From Paludibacteraceae bacterium (GTDB taxonomy: Bacteria > Bacteroidota > Bacteroidia > Bacteroidales > Paludibacteraceae): a stretch of 35,218 bases of DNA. The notes below the pieces were generated by a model, which was not told where the DNA came from, ran no database searches, and saw only the letters and a list, made by a program, of their open reading frames with translations. A program made the position numbers and the translations under genes. This document shows positions 19,876 through 25,909 of the stretch, piece after piece. Location of the stretch: contig JAKSKV010000031.1 of NCBI GenBank assembly GCA_024401555.1, positions 1 to 35,218 of the forward strand, written 5' to 3'. Within the stretch, counting starts at the first letter, position 1; each line of letters begins with the position of its first letter.

Positions 19876-21177
19876 ATGGACAACAAAGCCCCTAACAGAG
19901 CGCCCAGTTTTTTAGCGCTCACCCCACTGATACTATTCCTATGCCTCTACTTAGGCACCTCTCTCCTACTCAATGACTTCTATAAAGTGCCTATTACGGT
20001 GGCCTTCGCAATCTCCTCGCTCTACGCCATCGTCATCACCCGCAAAATCAAACTCGAAGATAGAGTCAATCTATTCAGCCAAGGAGCTGGCAACAAAACC
20101 TTGCTGCTAATGGTCTGGATTTTCATCTTGGCGGGCGCATTCGCAAAGAGCGCCAAAGAGATGGGAGCCGTGGAATCCACTGTCAATCTGACACTTAACA
20201 TTCTACCCGCCAACTTCATCCTTCCTGGATTATTTTTGGCGGCTTGTTTCATATCGCTATCAATCGGCACATCAGTCGGTACCATTGCAGCGCTGACGCC
20301 TGTGGCAGTCGGTATCGCACAAGATATGAATACGCCAATAGCGCTTGTTGTCGCCATCATAGTAGGCGGCGCCTATTTCGGAGACAACCTATCGTTCATA
20401 TCCGACACCACCATTATCGCCACCCAAAGCCAAGGATGCAAGATGAGCGATAAATTCAAAGTGAATATCTTTATTGTGGCCCCAGCGGCCATCATCATGT
20501 TGATCTACTATCTTATGTTAGGACAGGACGTATGCCTTGTTTCAGAAGCCAAAAATGTCGAATGGATAAAGATCATCCCCTATATTGTGGTATTGCTGAC
20601 CGCCATCTTCGGCGTCAATGTCATGGTGGTGCTTACCATCGGACTCCTTCTTTGCGGTGTGATAGGCATTGCGACAGGTTCCTATGATTTCTTCGGATGG
20701 TTAGCTGCCATGGGCGAAGGTGTCATGGGTATGAGTGAATTGATCATCGTCACCCTATTGGCGGGTGGTATGCTGGAACTGATCCGTTACAATGGCGGCC
20801 TCGCCTTCCTTACGGAGAAACTAACCAAACGAGTGAAGGGGAAACGTGGATGCGAACTCTGCATCGCCCTGCTTGTCGCTTTGAGCGATTTCTGCACCGC
20901 CAACAACACGGTGGCGATCATTACGGTAGGCCCCATCGCCAAGAGTTTAGCGGAGAAATACGATGTGGACCCTCGCCGTTCCGCCAGTATCTTGGACACC
21001 TTCTCCTGCTTTGCGCAAGGCATCATCCCTTATGGAGCACAGATGTTGATCGCTGCGGGTTTAGCATCGCTACAACCCAATGAAATCGCCCGCTACATGT
21101 ATTACCCTATCCTCGTCGGAATCATCGCATTGGTGGCAATATTGCTGAGGTATCCAAAGATGAAGACTAGCAACTAA
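19876..21177 (+). CDS. NhaC-family Na+/H+ antiporter
   Basis: The 433-residue polytopic membrane protein has about eleven or twelve hydrophobic segments. Family marks are the stretch LSIGTSVGTIAALTPVAVGIA, the GGAYFGDNLSFISDTTIIA motif with Asp residues in a membrane segment, and CTANNTVAIITVGPIAKSLAEKYDVDPRRSASILDTFSC, all typical of NhaC-type exchangers. Such proteins export sodium against proton or malate/lactate gradients. The exact exchange cannot be told from sequence. The C-terminus is intact, and the repeat island begins at the base after the stop codon. Confidence 0.88.
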   Translation: MDNKAPNRAPSFLALTPLILFLCLYLGTSLLLNDFYKVPITVAFAISSLYAIVITRKIKLEDRVNLFSQGAGNKTLLLMVWIFILAGAFAKSAKEMGAVESTVNLTLNILPANFILPGLFLAACFISLSIGTSVGTIAALTPVAVGIAQDMNTPIALVVAIIVGGAYFGDNLSFISDTTIIATQSQGCKMSDKFKVNIFIVAPAAIIMLIYYLMLGQDVCLVSEAKNVEWIKIIPYIVVLLTAIFGVNVMVVLTIGLLLCGVIGIATGSYDFFGWLAAMGEGVMGMSELIIVTLLAGGMLELIRYNGGLAFLTEKLTKRVKGKRGCELCIALLVALSDFCTANNTVAIITVGPIAKSLAEKYDVDPRRSASILDTFSCFAQGIIPYGAQMLIAAGLASLQPNEIARYMYYPILVGIIALVAILLRYPKMKTSN

Positions 21178-21220
21178 GGCGTCCGTAGGACGCTACCTCT
21201 ATAACCCCGTACATCAGAGC

Positions 21221-21360
21221 GCAGCGAGATGTGCGGGGATCTACAAGCAGTCGGATACTATACGATAGTGCAGCGAGATGTGCGAGACGAACAAGCAGTC
21301 GGATACTACACGATAGCGCAGCGAGATGTACGGAACAAGAGCGTGGAGGGTTGGTATATG
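21221..21360. repeat. Tandem array of 48-49 bp units, left arm
   Basis: Three units begin GCAGCGAGATGT at 21221, 21270 and 21318 (spacings 49 and 48). Each full unit carries ACAAGCAGTCGGATACTA near its middle. The third unit diverges after GTACGGAACAAG into the block shared by both arms. The whole unit repeats, with no unique spacers. Confidence 0.8.
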
Positions 21361-21520
21361 CATGAGATATCAGATAAGCAGTCGCATGCGATCGATGTCC
21401 GAGCGTACGCACTGGTGGTAAGTACAGGATGTACGTGAGAGGATGACATGCACCATACTCGCTACCGCCACCTATAGAGTGACTACTATCCGCCTTTCCC
21501 TTGTCTGGCAAGCCCTATCA

Positions 21521-21625
21521 CCCACACTTCTACGATTTACCTGCCACACTGACACACCACGCTCATCTACGATATACCTGTCACCCTGTCGTACCACGCA
21601 CGTCTGCGATTCGCTACGACGTACA
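21521..21625. repeat. Second degenerate tandem array, left arm
   Basis: About three copies of a 30-40 bp unit occur with the core CTACGATWTACCTGYCAC preceded by CACGCWCRTC. The match between copies is imperfect, and the last copy runs into the conserved end TTCGCTACGACG. Confidence 0.6.
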
Positions 21626-21696
21626 TGGTTACTGAGGTATCGTCCTTCGGACGGATTATTTTAGCGTAATACATACACTTGTTTATGATTTTATTG

Positions 21697-21704
21697 TATA
21701 TTTG
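21697..21704 (+). promoter_or_regulatory. -7 element of the transposase gene
   Basis: TATATTTG matches TAnnTTTG. A TTG at 21679-21681 is only 15 bases upstream, so the -33 element is doubtful. The start site would fall near 21711, after the first in-frame ATG at 21707. Confidence 0.48.
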
Positions 21705-21736
21705 CAATGAAAATGTCTAACTTAAACTTAACTAAA

Positions 21737-22210
21737 ATGTCATACAGTGTTTTGTTATATCACATCATTTGGAGAACCAAGTATTCGTATTACACCATTA
21801 ACCCTGATCATGAAAGGGATTTGTATGGTTACATATATGGATTATGTGAAAATAAGCGTTGTAAGTTATTACGTATCGGAGGCATAGCTAACCACATCCA
21901 TATGTTCGTCGGCATACGGCCTGATATAAAGGTCAGTGAGTTTATACAGGTTATAAAGGTGGAAAGTTGCAAGTGGATGAAAGAGAGACGATTCATGTTC
22001 CCTATCTTTGACGGATGGGCCGATGGATATGGTGCTTTCTCATACAGTGAAAAAGATAAATACATGATAATCAATTACATTAAAAACCAGAAGAAACATC
22101 ACGAAATCCAAGATCTCATGGAAGAGTACGCTAAGATACTGAAAGAATGGAAGATAGATATCAAAGAGGATAGGTTTCTTCACGACGACAAAGGCCTCCC
22201 GCGTCCGTAG
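21737..22210 (+). CDS. IS200-like single-tyrosine (Y1) transposase, RAYT type
   Basis: The product is a small HUH-fold DNA nuclease-ligase. From the ATG at 21737 it has 157 residues and starts MSYSVLLYHIIWRTKYS, the usual family beginning; in-frame ATGs at 21707 and 21713 are possible but lie at or before the predicted transcription start. The metal-binding HUH motif is NHIH (His53 and His55) and the catalytic tyrosine is Tyr114 in NYIKNQKKHH. Length and motif spacing resemble REP-associated TnpA. All key residues are present, so the enzyme may be active. The stop codon TAG is supplied by the first hairpin of the right arm. The gene looks more AT-rich than its arms. It is flanked by two related repeat arms, as expected for a transposase that recognises hairpin ends. 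Confidence 0.85.
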   Translation: MSYSVLLYHIIWRTKYSYYTINPDHERDLYGYIYGLCENKRCKLLRIGGIANHIHMFVGIRPDIKVSEFIQVIKVESCKWMKERRFMFPIFDGWADGYGAFSYSEKDKYMIINYIKNQKKHHEIQDLMEEYAKILKEWKIDIKEDRFLHDDKGLPRP

Positions 22211-22242
22211 GACGCTACCTCTATAACCCCGTACATCAGAGC

Positions 22243-22610
22243 GCAGCGAGATGTGCGGGGATGGACAAGCAGTCGCATGCTATACGATAGTGCAGCGAGA
22301 TGTGCGAGACGAACAAGCAGTCGGATACTATACGATAGCGCAGCGAGATGTGCGGGGGTGTGAGCAGTCGCATGCTATACGATGCAGCGAGATGTGCGGG
22401 GATCTACAAGCAGTCGGATACTATACAGCGTAGAGAGATGTACGGATGTACGAGCAGTCGGATGCTATACGACGCAGCGAGATGTGCAGGGGTGTGAGCA
22501 GTCGCATGCTATACGATGCAGCGAGATGTACGGGGATCTACAAGCAGTCGGATACTATACGATAGCGCAGCGAGATGTACGGAACAAGAGCGTGGAGGGT
22601 TGGTATATGC
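22243..22610. repeat. Tandem array of 44-49 bp units, right arm
   Basis: Eight units begin GCAGCGAGATGT (one variant GTAGAGAGATGT) at 22243, 22292, 22340, 22384, 22430, 22474, 22518 and 22567. Spacings are 49, 48, 44, 46, 44, 44 and 49. Two subtypes alternate: one with CTACAAGCAGTCGGATACTA and one with GTGTGAGCAGTCGCATGCTA. The mixed spacing breaks any reading frame. Confidence 0.82.
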
Positions 22611-22770
22611 ATGAGATATCAGATAAGCAGTCGCATGCGATCGATGTCCGAGCGTACGCACTGGTGGTAAGTACAGGATGTACGTGAGAGGATAACATGC
22701 ACCACACTCGCTACCGCCACCTTATAGAGTGACTACTATCCCCTTTTCCTTGTCTGGCAGGCCCTATCAC

Positions 22771-22898
22771 CCACACGCATCTACGATTTTGCGGTCACAC
22801 CACGCTCGTCTGCGATATACCTGCCACCTGTCATACCACGCACGTCTGCGATTTACCTTTCACTCTGTCACCCCGACACTCCACGCACGTCTGCGCTT
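22771..22898. repeat. Second degenerate tandem array, right arm
   Basis: About four copies of a 26-45 bp unit occur, with the core CACGCACGTCTGCGATTTAC and variants. It corresponds to 21521-21625 in the left arm but has one more copy and more length variation. Confidence 0.6.
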
Positions 22899-22960
22899 CG
22901 CTACGACGTACATGGTTACTGAGGTATCGTCCTTCGGACGAGGAGAATGGGAGAACAAAA

Positions 22961-22997
22961 AAAAAGCGGAACGTGTGAACGTTCCGCTTTTGCTTTT
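22961..22997 (-). terminator. Rho-independent terminator of purA
   Basis: The stem AGCGGAACGT (22965-22974) / ACGTTCCGCT (22979-22988) has a GTGA loop. On the minus strand it runs into a tract of at least nine T. The plus strand has TTTTGCTTTT, so it may also stop transcription leaving the repeat island. Confidence 0.88.
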
Positions 22998-23011
22998 ATT
23001 AGTCAATTCAA

Positions 23012-24289
23012 TTACATGAACTCTTGATATCTAACAATTGTTTGCTCACGGTCTGGACCGACTGAAACGATCTTGATAGGCACCTCAAGGTAATCCTCCA
23101 AGAAATCGATGTAGGCGTTGAACTCCTCTGGGAATTCGTTCTCGCTCTTCATAGAGGTCATATCAGTTTTCCAACCATCCATCTCTTGATAGATTGGCTC
23201 AACAGAACCCTCTGTCACATCGAATGGGAACTCGTCTGTCTCCTCGCCATTCACCTTGTAAGCAACGCACGCCTTGATCTTATCGAATCCATCCAACACA
23301 TCGCTCTTCATCATGATCAACTTGGTAACACCATTGATCATCACAGCATATTTCAAAGCCACAAGGTCAATCCAGCCACAACGACGCTCACGACCTGTCA
23401 CTGCACCATACTCATGACCGAGGTCACGGATGGTCTTGCCAGTCTCGTCGAACAACTCCGTTGGGAAAGGTCCTGAACCTACACGGGTACAATATGCTTT
23501 GAAGATACCGAACACATCACCAATCTTGTTAGGAGCGACACCCAAACCGGTACAAGCACCTGCGCAGATGGTATTGGAAGAGGTCACAAATGGATAAGAA
23601 CCGAAATCCACATCCAACATGGTACCTTGCGCACCCTCAGCCAAGATGGTCTTGCCCTCAGCAAGCAAGCCGTTCAACTCATATTCGCTGTCGATGAACT
23701 TGAACTCCTTCAACTTCTTCACGCCTTCCATCCAATCCTTCTCGATTGGAGCCAAGTCGTATTGGAAGTCATAGTGGCTCAAAATCTCTTTATGACGAGC
23801 GATCGCCTTTGCGTATTTCTCTTCGAAATTGTTGATCAAATCACCTACACGAAGACCATTTCTACTGATCTTATCAGTGTATGTAGGACCAATACCCTTA
23901 CCAGTGGTACCAATCTTAGAAGAGCCCTTCGCAGACTCGTATGCGGCATCCAACAAACGGTGGGTTGGCAAAATCAAGTGAGCCTTTTTAGAGATGTACA
24001 ATCTGCTCTTCAAATCGTGACCAGACTTCTCCAACTCCTCCACCTCTTTCTTGAAAAGAGCTGGATCAAGCACTACACCATTACCGATTACATTCACTTT
24101 GCCACCTTGGAAAATTCCAGATGGAATGGAGCGCAACACATACTTTTGTCCTTCAAATTCAAGAGTATGTCCAGCGTTTGGTCCTCCTTGGAAACGGGTA
24201 ACCACATCATAGCTGGGCGTCAAAACGTCCACTACTTTACCTTTACCTTCATCTCCCCATTGGAGACCTAACAATACGTCAACTTTCAT
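23012..24289 (-). CDS. purA: Adenylosuccinate synthetase
   Basis: PurA joins IMP and aspartate with GTP hydrolysis, the first of two steps from IMP to AMP, in the cytoplasm. The 425-residue length is normal for the family. The N-terminus MKVDVLLGLQWGDEGKGKVVD carries the GDEGKGK P-loop with the catalytic Asp, followed by GGPNAGHTLEF with the catalytic His. IGTTGKGIGPTYTDK, LAEGAQGTMLDVDFGSYPFVTSSNT and TGRERRCGWIDLVAL are all family signatures. It lies 17 bases after the pseudouridine synthase gene on the same strand and ends at a strong terminator, so the two are probably cotranscribed. Confidence 0.97.
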   Translation of the reverse strand: MKVDVLLGLQWGDEGKGKVVDVLTPSYDVVTRFQGGPNAGHTLEFEGQKYVLRSIPSGIFQGGKVNVIGNGVVLDPALFKKEVEELEKSGHDLKSRLYISKKAHLILPTHRLLDAAYESAKGSSKIGTTGKGIGPTYTDKISRNGLRVGDLINNFEEKYAKAIARHKEILSHYDFQYDLAPIEKDWMEGVKKLKEFKFIDSEYELNGLLAEGKTILAEGAQGTMLDVDFGSYPFVTSSNTICAGACTGLGVAPNKIGDVFGIFKAYCTRVGSGPFPTELFDETGKTIRDLGHEYGAVTGRERRCGWIDLVALKYAVMINGVTKLIMMKSDVLDGFDKIKACVAYKVNGEETDEFPFDVTEGSVEPIYQEMDGWKTDMTSMKSENEFPEEFNAYIDFLEDYLEVPIKIVSVGPDREQTIVRYQEFM

Positions 24290-24306: not shown

Positions 24307-25770
24307 TTACTCGAATGCGCCCATGCGCAACATATTCACTTCCTTCTCTGAGAGGAATCTCCATTGACCGCGTTTGAGGTTCTTCTTGGTCAAACCAGCG
24401 AAATAAACTCTATCCAAACGCATTACCTTGTAGCCCAAGTGCTCGAAGATACGACGAACGATACGGTTTCTTCCAGAGTGGATCTCGATACCGATCTTTC
24501 TGTGCTCCTCCTCATCCAAGAAGCTAACTTCGTCTGCCTTGATCTCGCCATCCTCCAACATGATTCCGGCCATGATCTTCTCGTAATCCTCTTGCTCAAG
24601 CGCCTTATCTAAAGTCACTTGGTAAATCTTCTTCTTATTGTACTTAGGGTGAGTCAACTTAGCCGCCAAGTCACCATCGTTGGTAAGAAGCAATACACCT
24701 GTCGTGTTTCTATCCAAACGACCTACTGGGTAGATACGCTCGTGACATGCGTTCTTCACAATGTCCAAAACAGTCAACTTTGCGTATGGATCGTCGTTAG
24801 AAGTGACACAATCCTTTGGTTTGTTCAACAAGAGGTAAATTCTCTTATCTGGAGAGACCAATTGGTCGTGGATCATCACCTTGTCGCCACGAAGGATCTT
24901 CGTACCCAACTCAGAAACAGTCACACCATTTACGGTAACCACACCAGCTTGGATCAACTCATCTGCCTCACGACGAGAGCAGATTCCCGCATTGGCCAAG
25001 AATTTATTCAAACGGATTTGCTCGTTTGGATCCTCGACAATCGAACGATACTCAATAGGACGAGTAATGTTCTTAAATTGTCTGTTATTGTTGTTACCAC
25101 CCTTTTTGAAGCCGCCACGATTGTTATTAGGGCGTTGTTGGCCACCACGGTTGTTGAAACCGCCACGGTTGTTATTGTAACCACCGCGATTGTTGTAACC
25201 ACCATTGTTATTATCGTAACCGCCACCGTTATTGTTATAACCACCGTTGTTGTTATTGTAGCCACCACCATTGTTGTTGTAGCCACCACGGTTGTTATTG
25301 TAACCACCACGGTTGTTGTTATAGCCGCCACGGTTGTTGTTGTAACCACCACGGTTGTTGTTATAGCCGCCACGGTTGTTGTTATAACCACCACGGTTGT
25401 TGTAGCCACCCTCCGACTCGCCATTGTTTTGGTTGTCGTTGTTGTAACCACGATTGTTATAACCACGGTTATTATATCCGCCGCCATTGTTGTCGTAGCC
25501 ACCACCATTGTTATTGTAGCGGTTGTTTGGACGATAAGGACGGTTATTTTGGTATTCGCTGTCGTTCTCCATGTTGAAACGAGTCGACGAATCGCCGATT
25601 CTTCTTCTTGGACGCTTTGCCGCAGGATCTGCGTTGTTGCGGATCACCCTATTTTCACTATTGAAGTTAGGATTGAAACTTTTTCTTTCTCTTGGATTTT
25701 CTCCGTCGTTGTTCTCGGCACCGTAGTTCCTCCCGGAATCTTTCTGCCACTCTTCTTCGTAAGGATACAT
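24307..25770 (-). CDS. RsuA/RluB-family pseudouridine synthase with Asn/Gly-rich N-terminal extension
   Basis: The enzyme isomerises uridine to pseudouridine in rRNA. From the ATG at 25770 it has 487 residues. The first 75 are polar and charged, then a low-complexity region (about 75-240) is made of 7-residue repeats YNNNRGG and variants. An S4 RNA-binding domain follows (about 258-305, IRLNKFLANAGICSRREADELI), then the catalytic domain with GRLDRNTTG (Asp360) and the family end KVMRLDRVYFAGLTKKNLKRGQWR. The core fits RluB (23S rRNA) or RsuA (16S rRNA); I cannot choose between them. The extension resembles RGG-box RNA-binding or condensate-forming segments. In-frame starts upstream of 25770 have no homology. 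A promoter candidate lies at 25910-25917. Confidence 0.9.
   Translation of the reverse strand: MYPYEEEWQKDSGRNYGAENNDGENPRERKSFNPNFNSENRVIRNNADPAAKRPRRRIGDSSTRFNMENDSEYQNNRPYRPNNRYNNNGGGYDNNGGGYNNRGYNNRGYNNDNQNNGESEGGYNNRGGYNNNRGGYNNNRGGYNNNRGGYNNNRGGYNNNRGGYNNNGGGYNNNNGGYNNNGGGYDNNNGGYNNRGGYNNNRGGFNNRGGQQRPNNNRGGFKKGGNNNNRQFKNITRPIEYRSIVEDPNEQIRLNKFLANAGICSRREADELIQAGVVTVNGVTVSELGTKILRGDKVMIHDQLVSPDKRIYLLLNKPKDCVTSNDDPYAKLTVLDIVKNACHERIYPVGRLDRNTTGVLLLTNDGDLAAKLTHPKYNKKKIYQVTLDKALEQEDYEKIMAGIMLEDGEIKADEVSFLDEEEHRKIGIEIHSGRNRIVRRIFEHLGYKVMRLDRVYFAGLTKKNLKRGQWRFLSEKEVNMLRMGAFE
25111..25410 (-). repeat. 21-bp tandem repeat coding for YNNNRGG units
   Basis: Within the pseudouridine synthase gene, residues 121-220 are a 7-residue period (GGYNNNR), with at least five near-perfect copies in a row and degenerate copies on both sides. 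The period is a multiple of three, so gain or loss of units would keep the frame. It also creates long open frames on the opposite strand that are not genes. Confidence 0.85.
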
Positions 25771-25909
25771 AATTTTAAGATTACTTATTAAAAAAAACAA
25801 TTACAACTTCTATTCTAAATCTCCGGCTTTATTTTCCACGAAACGTCGCCAGCTTATTTTTTCAATCAGTTATAAATAAACCTATCGGCATTTCTACCCA
25901 CAAGCCTCG

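Follow-up and report, generated by a model that had tools for sequence, protein, structure and literature searches.

The tnpA gene and its flanking arms

The window, the whole 35,218-nucleotide stretch of Paludibacteraceae DNA analyzed here, contains a Y1/HUH transposase gene (tnpA) on the forward strand between two direct-repeat arms at 21179-21653 and 22201-22940. The longest frame (21707-22210) matches Pfam Y1_Tnp (PF01797, E 9e-23) and has the motifs NHIH and NYIKNQ, which confirms the intact-looking transposase recognized in an earlier sequence-only reading of this DNA. The start common to relatives (MSHS.. or MAHV..) points to ATG 21737 as the beginning of the gene, giving a protein of 157 amino acids (21737-22210; Pfam, alignment A2, and AF2 model) with catalytic residues H53/H55, Y114, Q118, and HH121-122. 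The gene and its arms are flanked by a gene of the Na+/H+ antiporter family and by a second gene that we take to be purA. Rfam has no match across 20900-23100, no relative was found in viral contigs, and a PHROGs search matched two generic transposase families.

The two arms, 475 and 740 bp long and in one orientation as first described, are 96% identical over their first 155 nt and 92% identical over their last 76 nt. Repeat analysis and TRF bear out the hairpin ends and the internal tandem arrays; the hairpins at the outer edges are GCGTCC-GTA-GGACGC and CGTCC-TTC-GGACG. The arms are not non-coding throughout, as had been proposed, because the right arm starts inside tnpA: the stop codon TAG (22208-22210) is the loop of the first hairpin of this arm (22201-22215). 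The end of tnpA likewise overlaps the start of an arm in G322, apparently the closest relative.

Each arm is built of two REP-like units of about 60 nt, inverted around tandem arrays that consist partly of hairpin halves. A unit has two hairpins, HP1 and HP2, joined by a linker that has TAA at its end and measures 11-12 nt in these arms and 11-13 nt in the repeat generally; the HP2 stem has CC at its start. The L-type unit of the left arm (21179-21239, + strand; alignment A1 and fold) has HP1 GCGTCCGTAGGACGC, the 11-nt linker TACCTCTATAA, and HP2 CCCCGTACATC..GATGTGCGGGG, and the R-type unit of the same arm (21593-21653, - strand; alignment and ssDNA fold) has HP1 outermost. In the right arm, the L-type unit (22201-22261, + strand, HP1 at 22201-22215; sequence and fold) is identical to 21179-21238 over 60 nt, and the R-type unit lies at 22880-22940 on the - strand (alignment and ssDNA fold). 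The arrays, placed by TRF and motif positions on the + strand, are a 48-bp array of 2.4 copies that takes in the inner half of HP2 (21218-21334) and a 37-bp array of 2.3 copies that takes in the HP2 half of the R-type unit (21525-21610) in the left arm, and an array with periods of 44, 90, and 134 bp based on the inner half of HP2 (22240-22583) and a 36-bp array of 2.1 copies (22794-22871) in the right arm. Both arms are BIME/REPIN-like doublets extended by tandem duplication of HP2 halves. Arrayed arms are also present in G326 (41 bp, 3.8 copies) and G327 (periods of 41 and 77 bp); the tnpA proteins of these two genomes share 54% and 53% identity, respectively, with that of the window.

As single-stranded DNA, the L-type unit folds better than shuffled sequences (z -4.0), as do the R-type units on the - strand, which reads HP1-TAACC-HP2 (z -2.8 in the left arm and -2.5 in the right), compared with -1.1 and -0.6 on the + strand. 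For the right arm as a whole, the fold gains little over shuffled sequences (z -1.45) and is uninformative. On the R side, a pyrimidine-rich flank was noticed by eye only and was dropped.

Relationship of the enzyme to described Y1 transposases

TnpA scores above the cut-off for the NCBIfam IS200 family model and has no match to the RAYT model NF047646 at E<=0.001. In 45 aligned relatives (167-aa numbering), H65, Y124, Q128, H131, and H132 are invariant and H63 is nearly so. The AF2 model (pLDDT 86) has a helix at 137-147 after the Y helix; its nearest folds are ISDra2 and IS608 TnpA, and the REP-bound transposase 4er8 ranks 30th among the structures compared. TnpA thus has the HUH/Y1 catalytic core and fold of IS200/IS605 (subclass 1.1), and none of the several near-identical gene-containing copies typical of that subclass was found in the window's genome (G000), where tnpA is represented by one close copy, one paralogue of 35% identity, and one fragment. 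The paralogue (G000:C13:32692-33138, L046) has the sequence YIKGQEEHH and is surrounded by other hairpins, with no unit found near the gene under the strict rule given below; the fragment (G000:C71:33238-33375) lies within an open frame of 52 aa.

The signature Y---Q--HH is present in the window protein (YIKNQKKHH) and at all loci examined, 74 of 74 within the family and 29 of 29 outside it. Quentin et al. (2018, PMC6006769) print this signature for TnpA-Y1 subclass 1.2, and their table has "no" under REP for the subclass. The low genomic copy number of subclass 1.2 is also found for the window tnpA; however, the window protein has WA where WQ is printed for the subclass, and is called 1.2-like here rather than filed as a member. 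WQ was found at 31 of the 103 loci examined, the C13 paralogue among them. The RAYT class 2 motif Y---NP is absent, the window protein having YIKNQ. Judged by its motifs and family models, TnpA is an IS200-side enzyme and not a classical RAYT, so that the term "RAYT-type" applied in the sequence-only reading suits the repeat association of the enzyme but not its family.

Dispersal of the unit in the genome and genus

The left arm as query against the window's genome produced 37 match rows, and outside the locus only the first or last 60 nt or so match. What recurs is thus the ends of an arm, where the two inverted units of this length lie, and not the whole arm; no second copy of the complete arms, or of the gene plus arms, was found in this genome. 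The 13-nt HP1 core CGTCCTWCGGACG has 26 exact sites in the 3.52 Mb genome, 22 of them outside the window; about 0.2 would be expected in the genome from even base composition. Among 16 genomes of the genus, the core occurs 26 times in G000, three times in G322, and in none of the other 14; read backwards as a control, it occurs once in G000, not at all in G322, and four times across the others. The two genomes with the core are the two with a tnpA of at least 70% identity (Fisher p 0.008), so that within the genus the arm-end family and a close tnpA occur together.

Neighboring HP1 pairs within 800 bp number 13, of which ten are doublets of one polarity with HP1 outward; the other three are the pair around tnpA, a ++ pair, and a -- pair. 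Eight of the ten doublets lie outside the window. The doublets are 208-739 bp long, their interiors are mostly unrelated with some shared pieces, and an L unit faces an R unit in nine of the ten, the doublet in C103 having a variant. The proposal that the arms belong to a non-autonomous family holds for their ends, of which many copies are dispersed without the gene, but complete arms were found only at this locus, and the repeated entity is a REP of about 60 nt in inverted doublets.

Ten regions were fetched for an alignment of 26 units, from which one L010 unit was excluded because of its irregular HP2; the distant loci L012-L015 were left out of the analysis. The alignment has the HP1 core CGTCC-T[T/A]C-GGACG, the linker, an invariant GGTTA/TAACC side, and HP2. 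Both hairpins are kept in the fold, with two-sided changes at five of 17 pairs, two of which mostly divide the L from the R subtype. No consistent target duplication was found at the ten doublets: the flanks match over a mean of 1.4 nt, compared with 1.0 nt in swapped flanks, and the match is 2 nt or less at eight doublets and 4 nt at two (4 of 90 swapped pairs reach at least 4 nt). With the genome in draft form (159 contigs), junctions at repeats may contain assembly errors. The interiors of the doublets at L002, L003, and L007 also contain palindromic stretches that look dispersed (GGCTTCGACTCCGCTCAG.. and GTAGGGGCGTATTGCATACGCCC..) and may belong to other repeat families.

Association of the unit with tnpA across Bacteroidales

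A tnpA match is present in 101 of 358 genomes of the family at E<=1e-10 and in 186 of 393 sampled genomes of the order at E<=1e-15. The loci examined comprise 74 from the family, which include the window and the second paralogue and were drawn from the highest-ranking listed matches, though not every one of these, and only the best 29 from outside it. A strict unit was defined as an HP1 stem of at least 5, up to 20 nt, TAAC, and an HP2 stem of at least 5, within 500 bp of the gene, a rule that is conservative because the window's own R units fail it. Such a unit was found at 53 of the 103 Bacteroidales tnpA loci (window included), with about 1 expected from shuffles, and at none of 13 purA genes of the genus used as a control; the loci with a unit are 38 of 74 in the family (0.55 expected) and 15 of 29 outside it (0.4 expected), counts that, like those of genomes, are not independent because loci and genomes are related. 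No strict unit was found at the other 50 loci. Unit density is 1.06-1.09 per kb near tnpA and 0.06-0.08 per kb at a distance of 500-1500 bp, a contrast that is partly one of intergenic and coding DNA since the far stretches are richer in coding sequence.

When the foot of HP2 is left free, TAAC is the commonest of 156 foot types: it accounts for 69 of the 628 hairpin pairs, from 32 of the 103 loci, and the runner-up for 19. The TAA-footed pairs vary in sequence, with 59 different HP1s and 41 different HP2s, and their hairpins are mostly 11-13 nt apart. At 27 of 30 loci, the inverted-repeat score between the upstream and downstream sides of tnpA is higher than in 60 shuffles, and in G242, a single-contig genome, the unit flanking tnpA is found again elsewhere, twice as inverted pairs.

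Across the family, 46 of the 58 genomes with a match to the REP model (scored on at most 15 candidates per genome and used as presence only) have a tnpA match, compared with 55 of the 300 without. Because the genomes are related, the p-value of this comparison should not be read as a clean test. The association of subclass-1.2-like tnpA with TAACC-footed units is well supported. In the remaining 12 of the 58 genomes, no tnpA match reaches E<=1e-10. G290 and G291, with at least 15 and at least 14 REP-model matches, have no Y1 gene at E<=0.001, so that the repeats can be present, or be retained, where the gene is missing; G301, also with at least 15 matches, has only a weak Y1 match. The many REP-model matches of G290 and G291 (genus g20; L065 and L066) have the HP1 CGTCTTCCAGACG.

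Locus comparisons

Some orthologous tnpA loci stay in place across species with a varying number of repeats, as at L018 and L020; repeat number also varies between the orthologous loci L093 and L095. In G322, the orthologous antiporter gene is adjoined by the start of the left arm, of which about 180 nt are present before the end of the contig; the close tnpA is on a different contig, with a REP on each side, beside a presumably mscS-like gene that differs from its neighbor in the window. The outcome for the refuting condition named in the sequence-only reading, a relative with the same arms at this locus but no transposase, is therefore mixed: an arm start lies at this position in a relative whose tnpA is on another contig, and it can be followed only to the end of the contig.

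In contig C116 of G000 (L002, 2301-6270), a segment of 3.97 kb is bounded by two directly oriented doublets and contains three ORFs (199-504 aa), one of them DUF805. The corresponding flanks in G322 (L122, G322:C74) are separated by 86 bp, in which a degenerate REP-like remnant lies, and this is compatible with either gain or loss of the segment. In G301 and G302 (L063 and L062), which belong to another genus, one doublet joins the flanks of the G000 doublets in C111 and C69 with 98-99% identity; the homology to G000 (L003, L007) runs through the outer REP and ends near its inner edge, and the interior differs. One of the shared flanks encodes a SUKH-family protein. The sharing is perhaps due to transfer, to exchange at REPs, or to a binning error. 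As far as draft sequences can be trusted at repeats, where they may err, the comparisons at C116 and in G301/G302 show that synteny breaks coincide with doublets, and they do not give the cause.

No arm follows purA in 13 genus genomes with a readable flank, a comparison that is uninformative as to an empty site because the neighboring sequence differs. The flank of L004 in G322 was considered as an insertion site and is not clean, and no clean insertion site was found at purA, L004, or C116.

Nature of the system

Like the RAYT/TnpA-REP systems and REPtrons of E. coli and Stenotrophomonas, the locus has a low-copy Y1 gene flanked by dispersed inverted REP doublets, and like BIMEs and REPINs, the doublets are inverted REP pairs of one polarity, with an L- and an R-type unit in nine of the ten. 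The arms resemble these systems more than the sequence-only reading allowed, but their tag is another, TAACC at the foot of HP2 and not GTAG 5' of the REP hairpin. Other differences are the enzyme signature (Y---Q--HH and not Y---NP), the bipartite unit of HP1 and HP2, and the nested arrays within arms that reach hundreds of bp; compared with BIMEs and REPINs, the doublets have a greater length, interiors that are mostly unrelated, and tandemly expanded parts. TIRYTs and TIRtrons, as outlined by Di Nocera (2013, PMC3733652), also have a Y1 gene with long inverted flanks. The CGTC-tagged REPs of that paper, reported there without a dedicated transposase, have CGTC as an unpaired tag, whereas CGTC here starts the HP1 stem, within it, and varies between genomes. 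Subclass 1.2, as tabulated (PMC6006769), shares the signature, low copy number, and occurrence in Bacteroidetes, but is printed without REPs and with WQ, in contrast to the bipartite REPs and WA found here. No link of subclass 1.2 to REPs was found in the open-access literature searched.

The locus is probably a REPtron-like system, in which a low-copy 1.2-type Y1/HUH enzyme from the IS200 side lies amid cognate bipartite REPs tagged with TAACC. This suggests that an enzyme branch reported without partner repeats does have them. Counting against the interpretation are the 12 REP-model genomes in which tnpA is not matched and the 50 of 103 tnpA loci, the second Y1 gene of G000 among them, where no strict unit was found. 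TnpA would bind a folded unit where the DNA strand is single, for example on the lagging-strand template, and the unpaired TAA(CC) foot would do for it what GTAG does for REP enzymes. For those enzymes, the part that GTAG plays in cleavage rests on experiment (PMC8266576); by this analogy TAACC is a candidate cleavage guide. Tyr114 would nick the strand and the ends would be rejoined, so that doublets could be copied or moved without target duplications, and doublets near each other might also become exchange points. The arms may likewise have been duplicated or mobilized by TnpA.

The doublets might instead be MITE-like elements or fossil repeats moved by another enzyme (a DDE enzyme or another HUH), with tnpA merely in a repeat-rich spot. 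The 12 REP-model genomes without a tnpA match, two of them without any Y1 gene at E<=0.001, would fit this explanation, as would the 4-nt flank matches at two of the ten doublets. BrickBuilt and MITEPgRS of Porphyromonas gingivalis are also dispersed, with inverted ends and internal minisatellites; the ends printed for them in PMC4596501 are 12-nt TIRs of IS5 type, however, and its account of these elements describes no two-hairpin TAACC ends or Y1 gene. Identity with BrickBuilt was set aside on these printed ends, and the two 4-nt flank matches remain. Strict units by 53 of 103 tnpA genes, in many families and with differing stems, but by no purA gene, and the lack of consistent target duplication make an origin from MITEs or fossil repeats unlikely.

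An ordinary IS200-like insertion sequence, with the arms or their hairpins as its ends and moving together with the gene, would agree with the NCBIfam assignment and with the different gene adjoining the REP-flanked tnpA of G322. It is quite improbable given the single close copy in the genome besides the 35% paralogue and the fragment, the lack of a second gene-plus-arms copy, and the fact that some orthologous tnpA loci stay in place across species with differing repeat numbers (L018/L020). Very improbable is that the doublets are structures useful to the host, such as terminators or gyrase or IHF sites, that were selected and spread by homologous recombination, tnpA being a relic: recombination between repeats could give the end of G301/G302 homology near the inner edge of the outer REP, but the window tnpA has an open reading frame, its catalytic residues show no or almost no variation across the 45 aligned proteins, and the adjacency of unit and tnpA is left unexplained.

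A wider form of the REPtron-like interpretation is offered tentatively. The 1.2-type enzymes may be an independent REP-associated line across Bacteroidales, with a superfamily of TAACC repeats whose stems vary with enzyme lineage, and doublet pairs may act as joints for gain, loss, or exchange of segments such as the DUF805 cassette in C116, the SUKH-type gene of C69/C111, and tnpA itself. If so, a branch near IS200 with its own repeats and a foot other than GTAG would be an independent case for comparison on the question of how IS200-type transposases became REP-associated house enzymes, and a guide function of TAACC could be addressed with the same cleavage assays. A class of Bacteroidales intergenic repeats would also gain a name and a likely maker; repeats of the TAACC kind break assemblies and may mark rearrangement joints.

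Elsewhere in the window, a tandem array with periods of 21 and 42 bp (25142-25403) encodes an Asn/Gly/Tyr-rich stretch of the ORF at 24307-25800 on the - strand.
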